From IMG/VR virus record IMGVR_UViG_3300000272_000003, positions 1-25,595 of that record: 25,595 nucleotides of DNA; one strand, written 5' to 3'. Below the pieces are notes generated by a model, which made no database searches, was not told the origin of the DNA, and was given only the letters and a program-made list of their open reading frames with translations. The position numbers were made by a program, and so were the translations under genes. Below are positions 1 to 25,115 of this stretch, in pieces. The DNA is from a virus. Within the stretch, counting starts at the first letter, position 1, and every line of letters begins with the position of its first letter.

Positions 1-413
<413 letters not shown>

Positions 414-414
<1 letters not shown>

Positions 415-1010
415 CAGCGCACGGACCTCAACACATGCCGCACGGCACGCTCCATCTCCACCGGCAGCTCGCGCCGGATGCGCGCGATGACGCGGACATT
501 GATCCGCCGCGCGTTGAACATCTGCGGCACATCAATCGTCTGCACGGGCTCGATCGGCAGGCGTGTGCGCCCGACACGGCGGAACACCGTGCGGCCGCGG
601 TTGCCGATGAAGGCGCCGGGGATGGTCTTCACCCCGCCGCGCCTCTTGATCCTGAAGCGCAACACGTTCTGCGTGCCGGATCGACGCCGGCGCCGCGCCT
701 CGGCCAATGTCACCTTGCGTTCCAGGAAGCGGATGACATTCATCGAGCGCCCGGGCCGACCGCCCGCGAATGGATCGAGCTGCGCCACCAGCCGCCCGCG
801 ACGAGCGCGCAGGATGCGCAGCCTCGCCCGCACCTCGCTGGCGCGCAGGTTATACTCGGACGTGATCGCGCGCGTCATCTCGGTGCGCGCCTTGGAAGCG
901 GTTTTATTCAGCGCCATCGCCGCCGCGCGATCGCCCAGCCCGCGCTGGATGCGATTGAGCTTGCGGGTGATCCGCTCCACGCCCTCGATTCTGATCGAGA
1001 TCAGGCCCAT
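414..1010 (-). CDS. Minor tail protein Z-like (tail completion)
   Basis: The product has 198 residues, close to lambda gpZ (192). In lambda, gpZ acts in tail completion so that tails can join heads and DNA can be ejected. The C-terminal half shows the family pattern: a PGAFIGNRGRTVFRRVG stretch, then RLPIEPVQTIDVPQMF, then a basic helix ending in VRHVLRSVR. The N-terminus is rich in Arg/Lys helices. I chose the ATG at 1010 because an upstream TTG at 1022 only adds four residues. The position is odd: Z normally lies between the FII-like and U-like genes, but here those two genes (16.9 kb) overlap directly and Z is beyond the integrase, coupled to a primase-like gene. It may be a relocated gene of this phage or part of a neighbouring element. 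Confidence 0.8.
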
Positions 1011-1123
1011 GCGTTCACCCAATCCGCCGCGCTTCTCCTAGCGCCATTTCGCGCCGTTTCGTACCCGCATCCGAACATCTCAAGAAGGACCCGCAACACA
1101 TGGATGACGATCCACTCAAGCAT
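1001..1123 (-). CDS. Possible small ORF upstream of the Z-like gene
   Basis: A 40-codon ORF starts MLEWIVIHVLRVLLEM and ends in WVNAWA. Its stop overlaps the ATG of the Z-like gene by 10 nt, which would allow coupling. The first 16 residues are hydrophobic and could form a short membrane or amphipathic helix; the rest is basic. There is no clear Shine-Dalgarno sequence before the ATG. I do not recognise it. It may be a real coupled leader peptide or chance. Confidence 0.25.
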   Translation of the reverse strand: MLEWIVIHVLRVLLEMFGCGYETARNGARRSAADWVNAWA

Positions 1124-1221
1124 CAGAGCTGGCGTGTAGATGAATCGGTGAACGATCGATCGCGCTCTTCCCTCATAAAGGGGGAACGGGGATTCACTGT
1201 GCCCTAACTGTGCCGCACTTT
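1124..1221. promoter_or_regulatory. Non-coding gap after integrase: candidate attachment-site region
   Basis: About 100 bp without a convincing gene follow the integrase stop. They contain two direct copies of ACTGTGCC (1196-1203 and 1207-1214), 11 bp apart, about one helical turn, as expected for arm-type integrase sites. A palindrome CGATCGATCG lies near 1155-1164. No tRNA is visible. Temperate phages often keep attP beside the 3' end of int, so this is the best place to look, but no core can be defined from one copy. Confidence 0.3.
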
Positions 1222-2262
1222 TTACTTCACGCGGCGCAGCGGCGGAGCATCGCGGGCCGCCAGCTCGGCGTAGCCGGCCAGGTGTTCGACGCCGAAATGC
1301 GCATAGCGCAACACCATCTCCATCCGTTGCCATCCGCCGAGCTTCTGCAGCACCTCCAGCGGGCAGCCGGCTTGCACCATCCACGATGCCCAAGTGTGCC
1401 TCAGATCGTGCCAGCGGAAGTCCGCGATGCCGGCGCGAGACAGCGCACGACGCCAAGCTGTGTTGTTCAGGCGTGTCAATGGCCGGCCGCGATGGGTGAA
1501 GACATAAAGAGGATGCTGTCCACGTCGCCGATGCAGCACGGCCATGGCGTCGCGATTGAGGGGTGTTCCGAGCGGCTTGCTGTTCTTGGTCCGGTAGACG
1601 TGCAGCACGCAGCGATCCAAGTCGATCTGCGTCCATTGCAGCCGGCAGACGTTCTGCTCGCGCAGGCCCGTGTTGAGCGTGAACTCGGCCGCATCGGCGA
1701 TGTGTGGCGCCGTAGCTCGCAGGATATGCAGCAGCCGCTCGGCTTCGGCGCGCGTCAGCCAGCGTATGCGCTGGTTGTTCTCCGGCCGCATGCGCACATT
1801 CGGCGCCCGCTCGATCCAGCCCCAGCCGGCGGCGGCCCGCAGGATCGCACGCAACAGCGCAGCATGCCGGTTGACCGTGGCCGGGCTGACGCCCTCGGCC
1901 GCCTTGGCCTGGAGGATGTCCTCGATCATGTCCGCATCGATGGCATCCAGCATCATGCCGCGCAGGTGTGCATCCAGCCAGCGGAGACGGATGATATCCA
2001 CCCGCAGCGAGCGCTTGTGTTCGTGCTCGCTCAGCCATCGGACGACGGCCTCTTCCCACGTGCGCCTGGGGCGCTCTTTGAGCTTTGCTTGTCGCCAGAT
2101 CTCGGCGCGGCGGCGGTCGTGGTATTCGCGCGCAAGCTGCCGCGCGCCCGGTTGGTCCGATCGAATCCCAGTGCTTTCGCGTATTCGCGCGAAACCCGGG
2201 ATGGTGATGTCGATGTAGGCCGTGGCCGTGCCGTCGCCGTTTTTCCGCCAGCGGATGGACAT
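1222..2262 (-). CDS. int: Tyrosine recombinase / phage integrase
   Basis: The product has 346 residues and catalyses site-specific integration and excision between attP and attB. The catalytic set of the family is visible: R201 in TGLREQNV, K226 in RTKNSKP, H285 and R288 in WHDLRHTWAS, W311 replacing the second His in GGWQ, and nucleophile Y320 in VLRYAHF. Residues about 60-150 form the core-binding SAM-like domain. The first 50 residues resemble a short N-terminal arm-binding domain. The ATG at 2262 is preceded by a strong GGAGGAGG, which decides the start although the frame stays open to 2454. It is the last gene of the leftward early cluster, and an HTH gene overlaps its 5' end. Confidence 0.93.
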   Translation of the reverse strand: MSIRWRKNGDGTATAYIDITIPGFARIRESTGIRSDQPGARQLAREYHDRRRAEIWRQAKLKERPRRTWEEAVVRWLSEHEHKRSLRVDIIRLRWLDAHLRGMMLDAIDADMIEDILQAKAAEGVSPATVNRHAALLRAILRAAAGWGWIERAPNVRMRPENNQRIRWLTRAEAERLLHILRATAPHIADAAEFTLNTGLREQNVCRLQWTQIDLDRCVLHVYRTKNSKPLGTPLNRDAMAVLHRRRGQHPLYVFTHRGRPLTRLNNTAWRRALSRAGIADFRWHDLRHTWASWMVQAGCPLEVLQKLGGWQRMEMVLRYAHFGVEHLAGYAELAARDAPPLRRVK

Positions 2263-6857: not shown

Positions 6858-8675
6858 TTATGCTGCTGCTATTTCTGCCGAACTTAAAGCGCGGTCGTAG
6901 ATGCGCAGGTTGCGCAAGTGACCGTAAAGCTGGTAGAGGCCGCCGGTAAATGATCCAATGTGCACCGTGGTAGGAATAGCAGGCGCATCCACCGAACCTG
7001 TCCCCTGCAATACACCATCCAACCACAAATCCAATACTCCGTTTGAAACGCGATGTGCAATTCGATGTACTGCATTTGCTGGGATGGCGGCTTGTGTCGA
7101 TGGGTATGGAGTCGTGCCAAAATATGCTGTCCCTTTCCCCGATGAATTGTCGACCGTTAGGCAATTTTGCGAAGCGGCATCCTCACTATAAACATACATG
7201 CCGGTAGCCATGCCGATTGAACCAAACTTATCAAAGTCCATGATGACGGTTCGGCTGGTTACCCCAGCCCAGTTTCCGTTTGCAGCTATCGTCAAAACAT
7301 CCGCCGCCCGCGTCACGGCAGCCGTGGTGGTGGGGATGTAGCTGGAGGCGAAGGGCAACGCCGCTACCTGTGCGCCCCAAAGGTAGATGCCGCTCGCGCC
7401 GTCGCCGGTGTATAGCGTTGTCGTCGCAGGATTTGTGAGTATGAAATCCAACACATGGCTCGTTGATGTTGCTGTGATTGTGAACGAACACCTGACCCAA
7501 CCGTTACTTACAGGCACAACAGACCCAATTGATGCAGTCATCGCCACCAGGTCAAAATCCGCTGCGCCGGGACCGTTTGCGTTGACACGCATAGTTGTCC
7601 GCCCTGCAGGTTTAGCGAAAACGCTGATAGTGTAAACCTGCCCTACTGTCAATCCGCTGACGCTCTGTCTGATATAATGATATGCGTTAGTTGCACTCTC
7701 TACGAGTAAGTCTGCTGAGGTCGCTCCATCAGGCGCCGCCGTAGCGTTCGGCGTGATCGTCGCGGCAGACGCCGACCACGGCGTCACATCCAGGGCCTCG
7801 CTCTGCAATAGCAGATTGGTGCTCGCACCTTCCACTAACAGCCCGATGCCGCCGTCCGCCATGCGCTCAAAGCGTGGCGTATCAATCGCGGCTGTTTTGA
7901 TCAAACCGTCGAGCGGATCGATATAAGTGGCGGTGGAAGCGCGGGTGAAGGTCTGCGTGCCGCTCAACGCCACTTCATCGTTCTGACGTTTGAATGGAAT
8001 GTGGACTAGCGGGGACATGATGTTGCCGATCATGCCGGCTAGGCCCTTGGTCTTGTCGATGACAAACAAGTCCCGCGTGCCGTTGGTCAACGCGAAACGC
8101 GGCTGGCCCGCGCCGCCGTTGATCGCGGCAAGGTCGGCCTCGGCGCCCTGATCGATGGACACGGCCAGCGATTGCCCGGTGACGTTGCTCGGCCCGGTGA
8201 CCGTGCCGCCCGGCAGCCGGAGCACGTCCGCCGCCACCTCACCATCGTTGATGGCCTGTTGCGTCCCAGTGCTTACCCGATCCGCATGGACGTGCTTGTG
8301 CGTGCCGTCGGAATTATGTTCCAGGCTGAAGGGTACAATGTTCGCCCCGCCGGGCGTGCTGTCCAGCATCAGGAGGGCTCGCTTGAGCACCTCGTGCGTC
8401 TCGATATCGCCCTTGGTCGGGTAGGGTAGGCCAGTGAGCGGCGTGAAGTCGCGCACCACCGTATAGCTCTGTGCGCTAGCCGTGCTGCCTGCGTAGTTGG
8501 CCGTGAGCGTGATCTGCGTGTCCGAGTCCACGCTGCCGATGACGTACCAAACACCGCTGCCCACGACCGTAAAAATGTCGCCGGCGGCCAGCTGGCCGGT
8601 CCAGTTTGTACCGTTGCCAATGACGACGGCGCTGCCGTTGGTTACGTCAACTGTTCCACTATTGTATTGACTCAT
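6858..8675 (-). CDS. Tail fibre / receptor-binding protein with lectin-like C-terminal domain
   Basis: The product has 605 residues. Residues 1-75 (SGTVDVTNGSAVVIGNGTNW onward) form the small beta domain common at the start of phage fibre proteins. A middle region, about 230-450, resembles the carbohydrate-binding domain of fibre and spike proteins (GIGLLVEGASTNLLLQSEAL, then GTGD-like turns). The last ~150 residues resemble a concanavalin/LamG fold and end with YGHLRNLRIYDRALSSAEIA. It probably binds the host surface. The ATG at 8675 has a GGAGGAG site. Codons are less GC-rich than in the head genes, as is usual for exchanged fibre genes. Confidence 0.8.
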   Translation of the reverse strand: MSQYNSGTVDVTNGSAVVIGNGTNWTGQLAAGDIFTVVGSGVWYVIGSVDSDTQITLTANYAGSTASAQSYTVVRDFTPLTGLPYPTKGDIETHEVLKRALLMLDSTPGGANIVPFSLEHNSDGTHKHVHADRVSTGTQQAINDGEVAADVLRLPGGTVTGPSNVTGQSLAVSIDQGAEADLAAINGGAGQPRFALTNGTRDLFVIDKTKGLAGMIGNIMSPLVHIPFKRQNDEVALSGTQTFTRASTATYIDPLDGLIKTAAIDTPRFERMADGGIGLLVEGASTNLLLQSEALDVTPWSASAATITPNATAAPDGATSADLLVESATNAYHYIRQSVSGLTVGQVYTISVFAKPAGRTTMRVNANGPGAADFDLVAMTASIGSVVPVSNGWVRCSFTITATSTSHVLDFILTNPATTTLYTGDGASGIYLWGAQVAALPFASSYIPTTTAAVTRAADVLTIAANGNWAGVTSRTVIMDFDKFGSIGMATGMYVYSEDAASQNCLTVDNSSGKGTAYFGTTPYPSTQAAIPANAVHRIAHRVSNGVLDLWLDGVLQGTGSVDAPAIPTTVHIGSFTGGLYQLYGHLRNLRIYDRALSSAEIAAA

Positions 8676-17616: not shown

Positions 17617-19536
17617 TCAGGCCACGATGTCGGTGATGGCTGCGAACGACTGCGCATGGCGCACGCCGAGGTCGACGAATTGCAGCACCGAAATCTTGAT
17701 ATTTCCGATGCCGGCCGTGTACGGATCGACCTGGACGTTCAGCGCGCCCCACTCGCCGATGATCAGCTCCTCCCAGACGCCGAACAGGGCGGCCGACAGG
17801 TTCGTGCCGGTGCCCTTGGTGAGGTTCTTCGGCACTTGGTTCGAGCGGGCGAGGTTGTAGCCGTTGACGCTGCCGACGGCGCTCGGCAGATCTCGGATCG
17901 GCTCCTTGAACAGATATTCGCCGGTCGTCGTCTTGAGCTTCTTCAACGCGCCGACCACCTTGGCATTGGTCAAGTAGTTCATGGTGCCGATGTCGGCGTT
18001 GGCGTCGGCGACGGCCGTCTCCAGATCGACGAAGGGATCGACATCGGAGAGCGCAGCGCCGTTCGTGCCCATGGCCACGGAGCCGATGCCGGTCGTGTTC
18101 AGGATGCCCGTCGGCTGGTTGCCGGTGCCGCTGCCGTTGATGGCGGCGAGATCGATCGCCAATGCGATCACCTTGGCCAGATCGGAACGGATGAAAGCCT
18201 CCATGTCCAGGCTCGACTGCATGATGTTCTGCAGGGTCGTCTGGGTCAGGGCCGCCACGCCCTTCGGCGACAGGGACAAATTGTCGAAGGTCTGATCGGC
18301 CTCGGTCGGCTGGCCGCCTTCGGCAACCCAGTAGGCCGTGCCTCCGCCGGTTTGCCGCGGGATGCTGATGTTGCCGTCCAGGCCGCCGAGCACGGTGGCC
18401 CCGAGAGAACGGACAACCATGCGGTTGCGCAGCAGGTCGATGAACGACTGCGCCAGCACGTCGGTCTGGATCGTGGATGCGGCCACCGTGGTGGTCACGG
18501 CACGGGAAAGCACGTCCGTCGGAATCAGGGCCCCGTCGATCTTCTGGCCCTTGAAACGCTTGGCCGTCTCGGCGCACACCTCCAGCTCGAAAGCGGCGTC
18601 ATCACGGAACGCGGCGTTCGACGGATGCACGAGGGCGCGCAACAGGCGATTGAAGCGGAAGCCGGCGGCCTCCTGTTCCGTGAGGCCGATCGGCCGGCGC
18701 GCCTCGGCGGCGGCCTCGTGCGCGGCCTCGAGCAGGCGCAGACGGAACTCGTCCACGCCCTCGCCAGCGGCGATGGCCTCGCGGGCCAGGGCGTCGGCCT
18801 TGTCCGGCAGGAATCGCACCGCCAGCTTGGCGGCGGCCTCGATCTCCCGCACTCGGTCGCGCTCGGCGGCGAGGGCTTCTTCCCGCGCCTTCTTGCGCTC
18901 GGCGGCGAGATCGATCGGCGCCGCCTGGTTTTCCTTCTTCTTGGTGTCAGGCATGACAACCTCCTTTTTTGCTGATTGAACGGCGGCGGCGCCACCGTCC
19001 CTTTCCGCTTGCGCGGAATCCGGTTTGTCGCGGCCGACGCCGACCGTGGCATCGGCCGGCACGGCGACGATCGAGACCTCGAACGGTTCCCAATCTACGA
19101 TGCGATAGACATCCGCCTCGTCGCTGGACTCCTCGAGCACGGCGCGGTGGATCTGATAGCCGACGGACACGTGCCGGCGGATGCCGTCCACGATGTCCTG
19201 GAACACCTCCTGCGCCTGCTGCGAGCGGCCGAAGCGGACCTTCGCGCGCGCCACGCGGTCCTTGCCGATGCGCACCTCCTCGACGACGCCGACATGGGCG
19301 CGGGAATCGTGGCCGACCAGGACCGCGGCGCCATCACGCATGCGATCCAGGCGCATGGCCTGGCGCGTCACGTCCAGGATCTCCTGGCCGAACCAGCGCT
19401 CGACCGGCGTTTCCGAAGCGAACGCCAGATCGACGGTACGCGCCTCCTCGTCAATGGCGCGGCGGTCGATCGTGATCTCCCGCGCCAGGGTTTCGGCGCG
19501 CATGCGCCGCAACATCTCCTTGCTGATCTCAGGCAT
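17617..19536 (-). CDS. Prohead protease fused to HK97-type major capsid protein
   Basis: The product has 639 residues. Residues 1-170 are a prohead protease of the HK97 gp4 (S78) type, with His76 in VGHDSRAHVG and Ser124 in RRHVSVGYQI as likely catalytic residues. Residues about 195-300 are charged and helical, a scaffold/delta-like region. From about 320 the HK97 capsid fold follows (GGLDGNISIPRQTGGGTAYW, AEGGQPTEADQ, LAAINGSGTGNQPTGIL). An internal ATG at codon 195 has a near-perfect AAGGAGG site, so a separate 445-residue capsid protein is probably made in large excess. The start overlaps the portal stop by 8 bp. Confidence 0.92.
   Translation of the reverse strand: MPEISKEMLRRMRAETLAREITIDRRAIDEEARTVDLAFASETPVERWFGQEILDVTRQAMRLDRMRDGAAVLVGHDSRAHVGVVEEVRIGKDRVARAKVRFGRSQQAQEVFQDIVDGIRRHVSVGYQIHRAVLEESSDEADVYRIVDWEPFEVSIVAVPADATVGVGRDKPDSAQAERDGGAAAVQSAKKEVVMPDTKKKENQAAPIDLAAERKKAREEALAAERDRVREIEAAAKLAVRFLPDKADALAREAIAAGEGVDEFRLRLLEAAHEAAAEARRPIGLTEQEAAGFRFNRLLRALVHPSNAAFRDDAAFELEVCAETAKRFKGQKIDGALIPTDVLSRAVTTTVAASTIQTDVLAQSFIDLLRNRMVVRSLGATVLGGLDGNISIPRQTGGGTAYWVAEGGQPTEADQTFDNLSLSPKGVAALTQTTLQNIMQSSLDMEAFIRSDLAKVIALAIDLAAINGSGTGNQPTGILNTTGIGSVAMGTNGAALSDVDPFVDLETAVADANADIGTMNYLTNAKVVGALKKLKTTTGEYLFKEPIRDLPSAVGSVNGYNLARSNQVPKNLTKGTGTNLSAALFGVWEELIIGEWGALNVQVDPYTAGIGNIKISVLQFVDLGVRHAQSFAAITDIVA
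18954..18970 (-). promoter_or_regulatory. Internal ribosome binding site and slippery A-tract for the capsid protein
   Basis: The minus strand reads GCA AAA AAG GAG GTT GTC ATG. AAGGAGG lies 6 bases before ATG 18954. The same bases contain an in-phase A AAA AAG heptamer; a -1 slip would stop within six codons and release the protease. Internal initiation is the simpler reading. Confidence 0.6.
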
Positions 19537-21094
19537 TGGCTTGCCCTCCTTGTCCCTGCGCCGGCGCGGCCGGCGTGATGCCGAGCGCGGCCAGGCGTTC
19601 GTTCTCGCGCTTGATTTCGTCCCACACGTCGTCCGGATCGCGGCCCATGTCGCGGATGATTTCGGACCGGGACTTGATGCCGAGCGCCACGGCGCTCTCG
19701 TTCGCGGTCATGTCCTTCTGCGGGTCGACCCAGGCCCAGCGCCGGCCCTGGAAGGCGGCACGGCGGAACTTGTCGTAGCGATCCGCCGGCAGGGCCTTCA
19801 TGACCCCGCCCTTGCCGGGCACGCGGATCGTCCCCAAGGCGAGCTGCTGCTGCAGCCAGGTCTCGAACACCGGACGCACGAAGGAGCCGATGAACCACTG
19901 CTGCAGGGTGATCCACACATCGCGGTCGGAAAGCTCGCCCTGGCGGATCGAGGAGAAGTTCACGCCCTCCAGATCCGAGGCCAGCGAGTGGTAGGACACG
20001 CCGAGGCCGGCGGCGATGCCGCGCAGGGTGGACTTGACGAAGGCGCCGAATTGCTCATGCGGGTAGTCGGGATTGAACGGGGTGAAATCGTAGCCCTCGG
20101 GCAGCACGTCGAAGGTGCCCGGCTCGGCCTCCTGGATCAGTTCGCCGGTGGTGTCGTCCTCGTCGTCGGCGAGCGGCTGCGCGCCCTCGCCCTCGGCCGT
20201 CTTGAAAAATCCCATCTTCGAGGCGCCGACTCTTGCGGCGACGACGGCTGCCTCCTCGTAGCCGTGCAGGTTTTTCATCCGCGGCAGGGCGGTGGTCATC
20301 CACGGCACACCGCGCACCTGGTCGATATCGTCCTGGATATAGAGGTGCAGGATCTCGTCGGCCGGCACGCGGATGTGCTTGCCGGTGTAGTAGCTGGCCT
20401 GGAAGAGGTCGCTCGGGGCCTCGCGCAGGTGGTAGGCGACCGGGCGCTCGTCGGCGTCCAGTTCCACGCCCATGCGGATGCGGCGGCCGCCGGGCAGGGT
20501 AGCGTTCAGTCGGATGTCCAGAAGCTCGGGATCGATGAGCCGGAGCTGGAAACCGAAGGGGCCGGAGGTCATGCGCCGCACCAGGCACTCGCCGTCCTTG
20601 GCCACGGTGGCGATGATCAGCCGCTGCATCTCCGGCCAATCCAGGCGGCCGGAGACATCGCAGAAACGCGACCAGTCGGTCCACGCCTGTTCGATGGCGT
20701 TGCGGGCGAGCGTGTCCGGCGTGCCATCCGGATCGGTGACCCGGCTTTGCATGCGAATGCCGTGCGGGCCGATCACGTTCGTGCGCAACAGGCGCAGGAA
20801 CTGGCGCGCGTGATCGTCGTTGCGGGCGCGTTCGCGCGAACGCGCCCTAAGCGCCTGCAGGCCCTGCCAGATGTGCCAGTTCGGCGGGGTCGGCACCATC
20901 GTCCAACCGCTGTTGATGCGGCCGGCGGCGGCGGCGGCGTAGTTTCGGCGCCGGCGGACGGGTCGGCTCCGCGCCTGCTCATAGCGGCGCTTGGCCAGCC
21001 AACGGTTCAGAATGCGCGAGCCGTACTCCCGCTCCGGATTCTCGCGCCCGATGGCGAGGTCCTCGGTCAGCCGCACCGGCGCCGGGGCGCTCAT
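19529..21094 (-). CDS. Portal protein (lambda family)
   Basis: The product has 521 residues. NYAAAAAGRINSGWTMVPTP at the start, then LRTNVIGPHGIRMQSRV, EQAWTDWSRFCDVSGRLDW and DVWITLQQWFIGSFVRPVFE are typical of the lambda gpB portal family. Twelve copies form the ring through which DNA enters and leaves the head. RPGQ-like features near EILHLYIQDDIDQVRGVPWM are well conserved. The C-terminus (PAAPAQGQGGQANA) is flexible. Its ATG overlaps the preceding stop, and its own stop overlaps the protease start. Confidence 0.95.
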   Translation of the reverse strand: MSAPAPVRLTEDLAIGRENPEREYGSRILNRWLAKRRYEQARSRPVRRRRNYAAAAAGRINSGWTMVPTPPNWHIWQGLQALRARSRERARNDDHARQFLRLLRTNVIGPHGIRMQSRVTDPDGTPDTLARNAIEQAWTDWSRFCDVSGRLDWPEMQRLIIATVAKDGECLVRRMTSGPFGFQLRLIDPELLDIRLNATLPGGRRIRMGVELDADERPVAYHLREAPSDLFQASYYTGKHIRVPADEILHLYIQDDIDQVRGVPWMTTALPRMKNLHGYEEAAVVAARVGASKMGFFKTAEGEGAQPLADDEDDTTGELIQEAEPGTFDVLPEGYDFTPFNPDYPHEQFGAFVKSTLRGIAAGLGVSYHSLASDLEGVNFSSIRQGELSDRDVWITLQQWFIGSFVRPVFETWLQQQLALGTIRVPGKGGVMKALPADRYDKFRRAAFQGRRWAWVDPQKDMTANESAVALGIKSRSEIIRDMGRDPDDVWDEIKRENERLAALGITPAAPAQGQGGQANA

Positions 21095-21660
21095 GCGCTC
21101 ACCCTCACGTGCAACTTACGCCGCGGCGGCTTGCCGGAAAGGATGCGCTCGGCGGCCAGCTCCTGGCGGTAGAGCTTGGAGTAGTAGGAATGGAGCTTGA
21201 TCAACTCGGCCTTCGGAAACTGGCTCAATCGCCGGCTGCCGCCGCCGGGCGTCGAGATTTCCACCTGCGCCAGCTTCAGGTTGTTGGAATCCAGCATGTA
21301 GGCCTCGATGGCATCGAGCGTTTTCTTGACATTGCTGCGGGCGTCCGTCGCGGACGTGAGATTGGGGCGGATCCTTACCCGCCCGGAATAGACCGTATGC
21401 CGCTCGGAGCCCTTGACGGCGGCGAGAACAAGGTTGTATTCGCCGGCGGCCATGGATCCGGTGGTCGTCGAGTCGATCGTGATGCGATGGCGGCCGTCGC
21501 CGTAGTCGGTGGAAGTCTGGGTGTAGCTGTTCGATGCGTTGGTGATGTAGAGCTTCAGCGACCAGCCGTCGGCCGGGCGGTAGTCCGCCCCGGCGTCATA
21601 GAGGAAATCGACGGTGTCGCCCGCGAAGAACGATTCCGGCGGCAAAACAGGGAGTCCCAT
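21091..21660 (-). CDS. Head-tail joining-like protein with extra N-terminal beta domain
   Basis: The product has 189 residues. The last ~80 (NVKKTLDAIEAYMLDSNNLK, then LSQFPKAELIKLHSYYSKLY and PPRRKLHVRVS) resemble the small gpW-type proteins found before the portal gene. The first ~105 residues are a beta-rich domain (FFAGDTVDFLYDAGADYRPA, GEYNLVLAAVKGSERHTVYS) resembling an Ig-like fold. This makes it much longer than lambda W (68). It is the first gene after a terminator and a dyad, so it probably begins a new transcript. No strong ribosome binding site is seen before ATG 21660. Confidence 0.6.
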   Translation of the reverse strand: MGLPVLPPESFFAGDTVDFLYDAGADYRPADGWSLKLYITNASNSYTQTSTDYGDGRHRITIDSTTTGSMAAGEYNLVLAAVKGSERHTVYSGRVRIRPNLTSATDARSNVKKTLDAIEAYMLDSNNLKLAQVEISTPGGGSRRLSQFPKAELIKLHSYYSKLYRQELAAERILSGKPPRRKLHVRVSA

Positions 21661-21683
21661 GCCGCCGATCGTGCGGCCATCCG

Positions 21684-21714
21684 GGCGGAAATGTTAAGGC
21701 AAGGAATTTCCGCC
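21684..21714. promoter_or_regulatory. 9-bp inverted repeat, candidate operator before the head genes
   Basis: GGCGGAAAT (21684-21692) and ATTTCCGCC (21706-21714) are perfect inverse copies separated by 13 bp. They lie between a terminator and the first head gene, with a weak leftward -10-like TAACAT between the arms. It could be an activator or repressor site, or an RNA hairpin in a leader. Confidence 0.5.
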
Positions 21715-21725
21715 TGCGGACCAAC

Positions 21726-21751
21726 AAAAAAAGCCGGCCCGAAGGCCGGCT
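21726..21751 (-). terminator. Intrinsic terminator after the Mor-like gene
   Basis: On the minus strand AGCCGGCC-TTCG-GGCCGGCT forms a GC-rich stem with a stable tetraloop, followed by six or seven T. It lies 4 bp after the stop of the Mor-like gene. It should end transcripts from the terminase block, so the head genes need read-through or their own promoter. Confidence 0.9.
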
Positions 21752-21755
21752 CGTT

Positions 21756-22022
21756 TCAGCCATGGACGATCTGCCGGATGCGGCGATGCGTGAGCCGGTA
21801 TTTGTTCGCAAGCTCGGTGATGCCGGCCCCGGAGCGGTAGTCGCGGCGGATCGCCTCGTTGCGCGCCTTCACGTTTTGCCGCCGCGCGATGTAAACACGC
21901 TCGCCACCCCAGTATCGCCGGGCCTCGCGCTCGACCGCAGCCAACATCGAATCGATGCCGTCGATGCCCAGCGCCCGCTGCACACGCATCAGGATGTCCA
22001 GGATGGGATCGTCGTCGGCCAT
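21756..22022 (-). CDS. Mor-like transcription regulator
   Basis: The product has 88 residues. The C-terminal half, YIARRQNVKARNEAIRRDYR, then SGAGITELANKYRLTHRRIR and QIVHG, matches the HTH of the Mor/C transcription activator family. In phage Mu, Mor and C bind dyads upstream of promoters lacking a -35 box and activate middle and late genes. The N-terminal part (about 7-35) is helical, fitting Mor dimerisation. I chose ATG 22022; an upstream TTG at 22040 would overlap the previous gene. It is followed directly by a terminator and an inverted repeat, suggesting control of the head-tail operon. Confidence 0.75.
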   Translation of the reverse strand: MADDDPILDILMRVQRALGIDGIDSMLAAVEREARRYWGGERVYIARRQNVKARNEAIRRDYRSGAGITELANKYRLTHRRIRQIVHG

Positions 22023-22378: not shown

Positions 22379-24418
22379 TCATTCCCCCTTCCATCGCGTG
22401 ACGAATCCGCCGCGCTTTTTCGCTCGCCGCCGGCGCGGCCGCACCTTCGGCTCGGGTTCCTTTTCGGTCTTCTCCGTTTTCTCGGCCTCCACCGCCGGCG
22501 CCTGGTCCTCCGGCTCCAGCACGCGGGCGAGGGCATCCCAGTCCCGCCGGCGCTTGCGGTGCACGCGCACCTCCGGGTGCTGGCTGGCGGCAACGGCGTA
22601 GACCGCCGTGTCCAGCGCCTCGTTGCGCCGGCCGCGGCGCTTCACCCAGCGGTTTTTCTCGGGGTCGAACACCTCGGCCAGCAACTGCTGGTAGTAGTCC
22701 TCGTCCAGGTCGGCGGGGAAGCGCAGCCGGCGCTCGGCCGGCTCCACGCCGGCATCCGCCGAGAGACGGTTGTGTACCCAGTGCTTGCCGGTATCGGCGC
22801 CCACCATCCACAGGTGCACGCCGCGCTTGATCGTGCGCCCGCGCATCGTCACGTCCTGCGGCCGCGGCCGCGGCGCCAGGATCGGCCGGCCGGCCGTGCT
22901 CGCGCCCTTGACGGCCATCAGCCGCGGCAGGCAACGGGAGCGCACGAAGGCATAGACCTCGTGCGTGAAGTGGCCGCCGGAGTCGATGGCGATGGCGGAG
23001 ATGCGCATGTCGCGCCCCCAGGCGTTGCGATATGGGCGCGTGAGATAATCGTACAGCGGCGACACCATCGCCTCCGCCTCGGCCCGGGCCCGCTCCGGAG
23101 CATCGGCGCGGCGCGCCTCGATCATGGCCCGGGCCTTGCGCTCGCAGGCTCGCAGCATGCGCGCCGGGTCGCCCGGAAGTTCCAGCCAGTCGATCACCCA
23201 ACATCGTTCCTCGCGGCCCCAGCCGAGCACCTGGATGGCCAGACGGTCGTCCTGCGTGTCGATGCCGGCCGTGAGCACCAGGCAGCCGGGCGGGATCTCG
23301 CCGCATTTGTATTCCTCGGCGCGCTGGCGGATCACCTGCGGCTTCAGGTCGCGCGAGCGGTCCTCCCAGCATTCGGCCAGGCGCGTGTTGATGAAGCGCT
23401 TGAGCTTGGCCGGATCGGACTGCGAATCGAGCCATTCCTGCGCCAGTTCCATCCAGGTGAGCCCGAGTCCGACCGGATAGTAGAGGGCGTTGATGTGGTA
23501 GGAGCGCCATCCGCGCACGCGCGGCTTCGCGGTCGGCCGCCAGCGGCCGGCGGCGAGCATGGCCGGCTTGTGGCTCTCGTTGATCTCCGCGCCGCAATGC
23601 TCGCAAACATACCAGGCGGCGGTGACGACGCCGTCAGGCGAGCGCGTCCATTGCAGCTGCTTCCATTTCAGCACAATCCATGCGCCGCAATGCGGGCAGG
23701 GGACGAAATACTTGCGGCGGTCGCCGTGATCATGGTCCTCCTCGATGCGCGAGGCGTCCTTGATGGTGGGCGTGGAGATCTCCAGCGTCTTCCGCCGCGG
23801 GAAGGTGGTCTGGCGCACGTCGATGAGGCCGGCCGGGTCGCCCTCGCCGCCGACGTCCCAGGGGAACGCGTCCGCCTCGTCCAGAATCACGTACCGGATC
23901 GACATCTGGCGGAGGCTCGCGGCGGAATTCGCGCCGCCAAGGATGAGCACGCCGCCGGGGAAGAGCTTGAGGTCCTGCGTGTTGCTGCCGTCGCGCGTCT
24001 TGCGCTCGCCGAGCAGCTCGCGCAGCGCCGGCGTTTCCTCGATCATCGGCTTGAGGCGCGTCTTCTCGATCTTGTCGCGCAGATCCAGCGTCGGCTCGAT
24101 GAACAGCGTCGGCGCCGGGGCGTGGTCCATGATGTATCCGAGCCAGTTCAGCGCCACTTCGGTGACGCCGATCTGCGAGCATTTCATCACCACCACGCGG
24201 CGAACCGGCGAGTGCAGGGATAGCGCGTCCATGATCTCGCGCAGGAACGGGGCGCGGCTCGTGCGCCAGCGACCGGCCTCGCCGGAGGCGACGGCGGAAA
24301 GCACGCGGTGCTCGTCCGCCCACTCGGATACCGTGCGCCGGGCCCGCGGCCGGCACGCGGCCGCCATGGCACGGAAGATGACGACGGCTGCGGTCGGGCG
24401 GGCGAGGGTTTCGGTCAT
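22379..24418 (-). CDS. Terminase large subunit (GpA family)
   Basis: The product has 679 residues. It packages DNA with an ATPase and cuts it with a nuclease. A degenerate Walker A (CSQIGVTE, 80-87), Walker B (VILDEADAF, 177-185) and motif III (STPT, 215-218) are visible. Four cysteines (241, 244, 272, 275: CPHC...CEHC) form a zinc finger. The nuclease part has AGIDTQDDRL (about 390), AIDSGGHF (about 485) and LDTAVYAV (about 615) as acidic motifs. The C-terminus is basic. Family and length (lambda gpA 641) suggest cos-type packaging. ATG 24418 overlaps the preceding stop. Confidence 0.95.
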   Translation of the reverse strand: MTETLARPTAAVVIFRAMAAACRPRARRTVSEWADEHRVLSAVASGEAGRWRTSRAPFLREIMDALSLHSPVRRVVVMKCSQIGVTEVALNWLGYIMDHAPAPTLFIEPTLDLRDKIEKTRLKPMIEETPALRELLGERKTRDGSNTQDLKLFPGGVLILGGANSAASLRQMSIRYVILDEADAFPWDVGGEGDPAGLIDVRQTTFPRRKTLEISTPTIKDASRIEEDHDHGDRRKYFVPCPHCGAWIVLKWKQLQWTRSPDGVVTAAWYVCEHCGAEINESHKPAMLAAGRWRPTAKPRVRGWRSYHINALYYPVGLGLTWMELAQEWLDSQSDPAKLKRFINTRLAECWEDRSRDLKPQVIRQRAEEYKCGEIPPGCLVLTAGIDTQDDRLAIQVLGWGREERCWVIDWLELPGDPARMLRACERKARAMIEARRADAPERARAEAEAMVSPLYDYLTRPYRNAWGRDMRISAIAIDSGGHFTHEVYAFVRSRCLPRLMAVKGASTAGRPILAPRPRPQDVTMRGRTIKRGVHLWMVGADTGKHWVHNRLSADAGVEPAERRLRFPADLDEDYYQQLLAEVFDPEKNRWVKRRGRRNEALDTAVYAVAASQHPEVRVHRKRRRDWDALARVLEPEDQAPAVEAEKTEKTEKEPEPKVRPRRRRAKKRGGFVTRWKGE

Positions 24419-24615
24419 TGCCTGGCCGTCGGCATGGGCATGACATTCGGCTGCTGGATATCCACGACATCGCAAAGCCAGTCCATGATCTCCTCGGCGC
24501 GCGCCTTGAGATCCGCGATGGATGCTCCACCCTGCCCGGCGGACGCCACCGCCAACTGCATGCATGCATGCCTGTTCTGGATGTTGTTGCGAAAAACACT
24601 CTTGATGTCAGCCAT
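24415..24615 (-). CDS. Small unknown protein between terminase genes
   Basis: The product has 66 residues (MADIKSVFRNNIQNRHACMQ onward) with a clear AAGGAGA site before ATG 24615. It is soluble and helical (ASIADLKARAEEIMDWL) and lacks known motifs. Its stop overlaps the large terminase ATG. The site and spacing are much like those of the neighbouring DUF5662-like gene. Confidence 0.65.
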   Translation of the reverse strand: MADIKSVFRNNIQNRHACMQLAVASAGQGGASIADLKARAEEIMDWLCDVVDIQQPNVMPMPTARQ

Positions 24616-24625
24616 TGTTTTCTCC

Positions 24626-25105
24626 TTAACTTTCGTCTGCTTTGTGATATACACGCTGGCCGTTTATCCATTCAGCCGTATTCCTGAATATCTGTGTCAG
24701 TTCGTCAGAAAAACCGAACCTGTCCCTGTTGATTTCAATGCTTCTCATCAGATTCCCGTCATCGTGTCGGAGACCGGCCGCCTTCCAGTCGCAAAGCATT
24801 TCTATCAGGTCAATGAGGTTCATTCCTCGTATGCTGTTCTCATGATATTCCGGGTGATGCCTGTTGTGCGCATTATGATGCTCAACCATTGGACGCATCT
24901 TTCTCATGCATTCACGATATTCCTCAGAACCATATGTAATCCCTCTCAACTTGGAGGTATAAACCTCAAGAATCTCCACTTCGGGAGATTGTAATTTCGA
25001 TTGGTCATGCATTTCTTGCCGATAAAGTAATTCACGGATCACTGCATTGAGATAGTTCCGTAGGGTCTCGATATGTCGCATGGTCTTAAATTTCGCGTCA
25101 CTCAT
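24626..25105 (-). CDS. DUF5662-like protein, cargo gene within the terminase block
   Basis: The product has 159 residues. MHDQSKLQSPEVEILEVYTS, GITYGSEEYRECM, HHNAHNRHHPEYH and GMNLIDLIEMLCDWKAAGL, then NRDRFGFSDEL match the DUF5662 pattern as I recall it. The clustered His and Asp residues suggest metal binding, perhaps HD-hydrolase-like, but this is unproven. DNA and codon use are clearly more AT-rich than the surrounding genes, typical of a recently acquired cargo gene. An AAGGAGAAAATA site lies before ATG 25105. It separates the small and large terminase genes, which are adjacent in lambda. Confidence 0.75.
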   Translation of the reverse strand: MSDAKFKTMRHIETLRNYLNAVIRELLYRQEMHDQSKLQSPEVEILEVYTSKLRGITYGSEEYRECMRKMRPMVEHHNAHNRHHPEYHENSIRGMNLIDLIEMLCDWKAAGLRHDDGNLMRSIEINRDRFGFSDELTQIFRNTAEWINGQRVYHKADES

Positions 25106-25115
25106 TATTTTCTCC

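Follow-up and report, generated by a model that had tools for sequence, protein, structure and literature searches.

At the Mu promoter Pm, Mor acts on a 16-bp element composed of two 5-bp repeats and a 6-bp spacer, its centre being at −43.5 relative to the RNA start; Pm is devoid of a −35 element and combines this dyad with a partial UP element 5′ of it (PMC4390567, PMC4287176). Pm drives the gene for C, and C serves the late promoters Plys, PI, PP and Pmom (PMC4287176). A Mor-like protein is also encoded by Pseudoalteromonas phage HS6, a Mu-like transposable phage, within its early/middle gene block. Phages VP882, phiHAP-1, PPpW-3 and Mano share with the phage described here a gpA-type terminase large subunit (TerL), a head-tail joining protein (joiner), a lambda-family portal and a protease-capsid fusion, encoded in the same order. 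They differ in having neither Mor nor an intergenic dyad: TerL overlaps the joiner gene or ends within 3 nt of it in VP882, phiHAP-1 and PPpW-3, the gap in Mano is 27 nt, and no Mor match was found for any of the four, either in the examined region or on searching the phage collection. In the literature searched (partial coverage), we found no account of a gpA/lambda-portal virion operon under Mor control, nor one of late gene control in Zetaproteobacteria phages.

The locus analyzed here lies in a window of 25,595 nt (the whole stretch of DNA under study), which is part of a 33.4-kb virus record. All genes discussed are located on the minus strand. A preliminary description had distinguished a Mor-type gene, a terminator, a perfect 9-bp inverted repeat and the first head gene, and all four are present on this strand:

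22379–24565, minus strand: gpA-type TerL gene (Pfam GpA_ATPase and GpA_nuclease), 5′ of the Mor gene
21756–22022 including the stop codon (21759–22022 without it), minus strand: Mor-family activator gene, 88 aa (Pfam PF08765 and phrog_532)
21731–21752, minus strand: intrinsic terminator 3′ of the Mor gene, then a run of seven U; not kept in relatives
21684–21714, minus strand: dyad GGCGGAAAT-TCCTTGCCTTAAC-ATTTCCGCC, putative operator, centred 39 nt 5′ of the joiner ATG
21693–21702, minus strand: conserved spacer core TTGCCTTAAC, with variants in relatives
21668–21673, minus strand: CACGAT, a tentative, weak −10-like hexamer 7 nt before the ATG; not significant alone
21091–21660, minus strand: joiner gene, ATG at 21660 (phrog_5774, E 9e-22); no Shine-Dalgarno sequence
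19529–21094, minus strand: portal protein gene, lambda family (Pfam Phage_portal_2, E 2e-100)
17617–19536, minus strand: protease/major capsid fusion gene (Pfam/PHROG profiles); its relatives in L110, L045 and L152 carry a second dyad

An ORF of 116 aa without assigned function separates the TerL and Mor genes, and the joiner gene is the first gene 3′ of the dyad. Judging from the comparisons presented below, the dyad is probably a DNA operator/promoter of the virion operon, which the Mor-like protein would bind to start the virion transcript; as such, it very probably serves to switch on the production of virions.

Profile comparisons place the 88-aa protein in the Mor/C family of transcription activators. 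It matches Pfam PF08765 (E 3e-9; 37.3 bits against a curated cut-off of 24.9) and the PHROG phrog_532 "late transcriptional activator" (E 3e-10), and the family profile finds the solved structures of Mu Mor (1rr7, E 1.3e-5) and Mu C (9l0x, E 1.5e-4). The predicted model (pLDDT 83.6) contains five helices, and a Foldseek search with this fold ranks C and Mor at the top, with E values of only about 0.15–0.2. Used alone as a query, the window protein retrieved no close relative from viral contigs, and a two-member Mor alignment retrieved only the contig of L003; among phage records, the sole match was the "late transcriptional activator" of HS6. The Mor protein of L003 is 69–70% identical to that of the window, and those of the remaining relatives 31–46%. 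The L003 gene (5672–5941) carries an in-frame TAG at the codon of a nearly invariant tryptophan, and is either a pseudogene or affected by a sequence error.

Relatives with the same gene order were obtained by a portal search (L003, L037, L039, L040, the Zetaproteobacteria MAG L044 and the Gammaproteobacteria MAG L045) and by a joiner search, which added L072/L087, L074, L075, L076, L084, L110 and others, together with two more Zetaproteobacteria genomes, L130 and L131. The arrangement TerL-Mor-[cargo]-dyad-joiner-portal is found in the window, L003, L037, L039, L040, L044, L045, L072, L074, L076, L110, L130 and L131/L152. Dyad-bearing records have Mor 5′ of the dyad wherever the contig is long enough. 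Conversely, nearly all relatives with Mor 5′ of the joiner gene keep the dyad there, so that relatives retaining Mor without it, which would speak against the proposed switch, are rare: L088 and L104 have no dyad despite a Mor match further 5′. The Mor match of L042 is located towards the other end of its record, and linking it to the dyad therefore assumes circularity. Most relatives without Mor also lack the dyad, among them four records of 36–43 kb (L079, L081, L095 and L108). A dyad score of at least 6 was associated with the presence of Mor (Fisher p=0.0097, hand-entered counts), a value that is conservative because the group with the dyad CTGACA-N15/16-TGTCAG (L097; L099-L107) was counted as Mor-less before a Mor-like protein turned up there. 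In this group the dyad lies about 25 nt before the joiner gene, with no TerL directly 5′, and the divergent Mor-like protein is encoded about 11 kb 5′, in the longest contig only.

The terminator behaves differently from the other elements. The window hairpin GAGCCGGCC-UUCG-GGCCGGCUUUUUUU (21752..21731; −20.3 kcal/mol, z −3.9) has terminator-like counterparts 5′ of the dyad in L040 and L044, and no such hairpin was found before the dyad in L003, L039 or L072; it is therefore not part of the conserved unit. Of the co-conservation anticipated for Mor, terminator and dyad, the pairing of Mor with the dyad is borne out, while the terminator proved particular to the window phage. Where the hairpins occur (window, L040, L044), the head genes would need a start of their own. 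A match to Rfam SorX/SorY over the terminator hairpin and the end of the Mor gene fell below the gathering score and was rejected.

Cargo of about 0.7–1.8 kb separates Mor from the dyad in L037, L040 and L044, and the dyad is still tied to the joiner gene. Since cargo is inserted between the two, the dyad travels with the start of the head genes and not with the end of Mor. The inserted genes (L040:1026-1715, L044:2601-4400, L037:3507-4390 and L152:3271-4680) are unrelated; one resembles a PemK/MazF-type toxin by eye, and others have promoter-like sequences of their own. Insertions of this kind recur, which makes the Mor-dyad interval a hot spot for cargo.

The window dyad, GGCGGAAAT-N13-ATTTCCGCC (21714..21684), is a perfect 9-bp inverted repeat, and a dyad of equal quality at the same position has p=0.005, the lowest value that 200 dinucleotide shuffles can give. 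By our own estimate, a few perfect 9-bp repeats are expected by chance in a GC-rich window of 25 kb, so the window by itself is insufficient to settle the matter, which is settled by comparative evidence. With a matrix built from the relatives, the window being left out, the window site ranks first among 66,810 positions across the entire 33.4-kb genome. When about fifteen lineages are aligned on the ATG without gaps, the dyad centre falls at −37 to −39.5 from the joiner ATG, with the exception of L084, where the same kind of dyad lies at about −72 from the annotated start. The shared layout comprises an A-rich tract (in most phages), GTGAAAY, the spacer core, RTTTCC, about 26 nt and the ATG; the core is TTGYCTTAAC in L003, L045, L084 and L131, and of the CCCTAAAA / TTTTACCCTAAAA type in others. 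The arms measure 5–9 bp and the spacer mostly 12–17 bp, as in the following examples:

L003: CGGACAT-N12-ATGTCCG
L040: AAAGTGAAA-N16-TTTCACTTT
L042: GCGACATTT-N10-AAATGTCGC
L045: TTGTAAA-N17-TTTACAA
L110: TGACATC-N12-GATGTCA

Arm sequences vary between phages and are self-complementary within each phage, with imperfect dyads in L039, L072, L074 and L130. Pairing with the phage's own arm reaches 5.4/7 vs 3.6/7 with the arms of other phages (p<5e-5; p=0.006 for the homologous type only). DNA pattern searches were less discriminating: the spacer-based pattern gave 22 chance matches besides the L003 contig, and the arm-based pattern returned the known loci and a conserved coding stretch of another gene.

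Each genome was also scanned with its own dyad site. A single site was found in the window, L003, L037, L044, L042 and L130, and two sites in three distant lineages, L110 (second site 23/26 with identical arms; best of shuffles 16), L045 (26/31; best of shuffles 20) and L131/L152 (26/26). The second sites precede the protease-capsid gene, whose product is 43–46% identical to that of the window, and their distances to the ATG match those of the joiner copies (the two copies compared: L110 24/24, L045 21/22 and L131/L152 22/20 nt). Both copies in a genome have the same orientation and each stands before a virion gene, which argues for a trans-acting DNA-binding protein. Two of the second sites have GGAG, resembling a ribosome-binding site, before the capsid ATG; it may be of use to transcripts that read through, or speak against the mRNA being leaderless at these sites. 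In L152 a 250-aa ORF between the portal and capsid genes (6973-7725), whose start is DNA methylase-like by eye, has the duplicated dyad just 3′ of it.

Conserved, covarying and locked in position, the dyad is by these comparisons not a product of chance, and the evidence supports its role as a conserved, sometimes duplicated putative operator of virion genes to which the terminator does not belong. As at Mu Pm, the dyad lies 5′ of its presumed target gene and is linked to a Mor-family protein, probably of HTH type; it would overlap the −35 region, no −35 hexamer is recognisable, and an A/T-rich tract lies 5′ of the dyad in most relatives. The exact geometry differs: the spacer is about 13–14 bp (mostly within 12–17 bp) instead of 6 bp, and the centre is about −38 from the ATG. 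The earlier idea of a Mu-style control element is supported, with the correction that the dyad has a greater width than in Mu. The operator would work like Pm without being a copy of it. Pm drives the gene for C, whereas the dyad described here precedes the head genes and is proposed to act on virion genes directly. With the Mu late promoters served by C it would share the use of several dyads per genome by one Mor/C-family activator at late or virion genes. Mu employs Mor and then C, whereas one Mor-like protein seems to suffice in these phages, acting in one step at one site (window) or two (L110, L045 and L152).

In the proposed mechanism, the terminase region and Mor would be transcribed from further 5′, in the window phage as far as the terminator. 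The Mor-like protein would then occupy the dyad as one dimer or as two; half-sites 22 bp, or about two helical turns, apart could suit two dimers. Among the PDB matches of the family profile are four chains of C (9l0x) and five of Mor (1rr7 and 9l0y together). The bound protein would recruit RNA polymerase to a promoter without a −35 element, and transcription of the joiner, portal, capsid and tail genes would start at the joiner ATG or a few bases away. The data show the position-locked, covarying dyads, their tie to Mor and the duplicates before capsid genes; from these we infer that Mor itself binds, that it activates and does not repress, and where the RNA starts.

The operator of a repressor would be expected to show much the same pattern. 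It is unlikely that the dyad is the operator of a different phage regulator, such as the lysogeny repressor, silencing the virion operon, with the Mor-like gene a mere neighbour. A symmetric operator just 5′ of a start codon would suit a repressor too, and L088 and L104 have a Mor match without the dyad. However, dyads track Mor across lineages, including the CTGACA group with its divergent Mor-like protein, the position fits a Mor/C-type activator site, and in the window phage and L040 a terminator stands before the head genes, so that these require their own start.

Less probable still, and rejected here, is an RNA hairpin that would control translation or serve in antitermination (as a put/nut-like site). 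The nearly constant distance between the dyad and the start codon would suit it, and for the window, L003, L040, L042 and L110 the predicted folding energies are −8 to −13 kcal/mol. Yet four phages that keep the DNA site (L039, L072, L074 and L131) have only a weak predicted RNA stem or none, G-U pairs account for only 5/23 mismatched arm positions, and the spacer varies from 12 to 17 nt; moreover, the site is 3′ of the terminator in the window and L040, so no antitermination is possible there. As the RNA stems are not conserved, the dyad would act as a DNA operator. A chance repeat, or a remnant of terminator or cargo insertion with no regulatory role, is highly improbable: 25 kb often holds perfect 9-bp repeats, but covariation, the position lock, the first rank genome-wide and the duplicates before capsid genes contradict this explanation.

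Under the activator reading, the transcript should begin with the first codon of the joiner gene or close to it. The window joiner has no Shine-Dalgarno sequence, while most other genes in the window have one, and this, together with the nearly constant dyad-ATG distance, suggests a leaderless or very short-leader mRNA; we place the RNA start at or a few bases from the ATG with moderate to low confidence. No sigma-70 promoter was found. For 6 of the 15 phages the best −10-like hexamer lies at −13/−14 (binomial p 0.003, or 0.011 without one near-duplicate), none of the 15 having an individually significant −10 element, and with TTGCCT set as the −35 no −10 was found 17 bp away. Counting against the proposed mechanism are the lack of a significant −10, a geometry unlike Mu Pm, the imperfect dyads and the L088/L104 exceptions, as well as the circularity assumed for L042, the site at about −72 in L084 and the in-frame TAG in the L003 Mor gene.

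If activation by Mor is true, control of the Mu type extends to packaging and head genes of the lambda-like kind in phages from the environment, among them phages of iron-oxidising Zetaproteobacteria, and the Mor proteins, each matched to an operator of its own, would form a natural series from which DNA recognition by the family could be read out. It is possible, if somewhat short of probable, that this represents a widespread one-step early-to-late switch outside Mu phages, in which private Mor/operator pairs with co-evolving half-sites act at a dyad before the joiner gene, with a further copy before the capsid gene in some phages, the −35 element is replaced by a wide Mor site of two turns, and virion mRNAs are leaderless or nearly so.

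Two further features of the record were observed. A DUF5662 gene occupies the TerS-TerL gap in the window (24626-25111) and the TerL-Mor gap in L003 (5033-5632); by its positions, it is relocated inside the packaging cluster. The ends of the record repeat each other (window 162-1538; record G000 31461-33056), with 1054 bp at 99.4% and 342 bp at 100% identity and a break between them, which suggests terminal redundancy, permutation of the ends or the merging of two strains.
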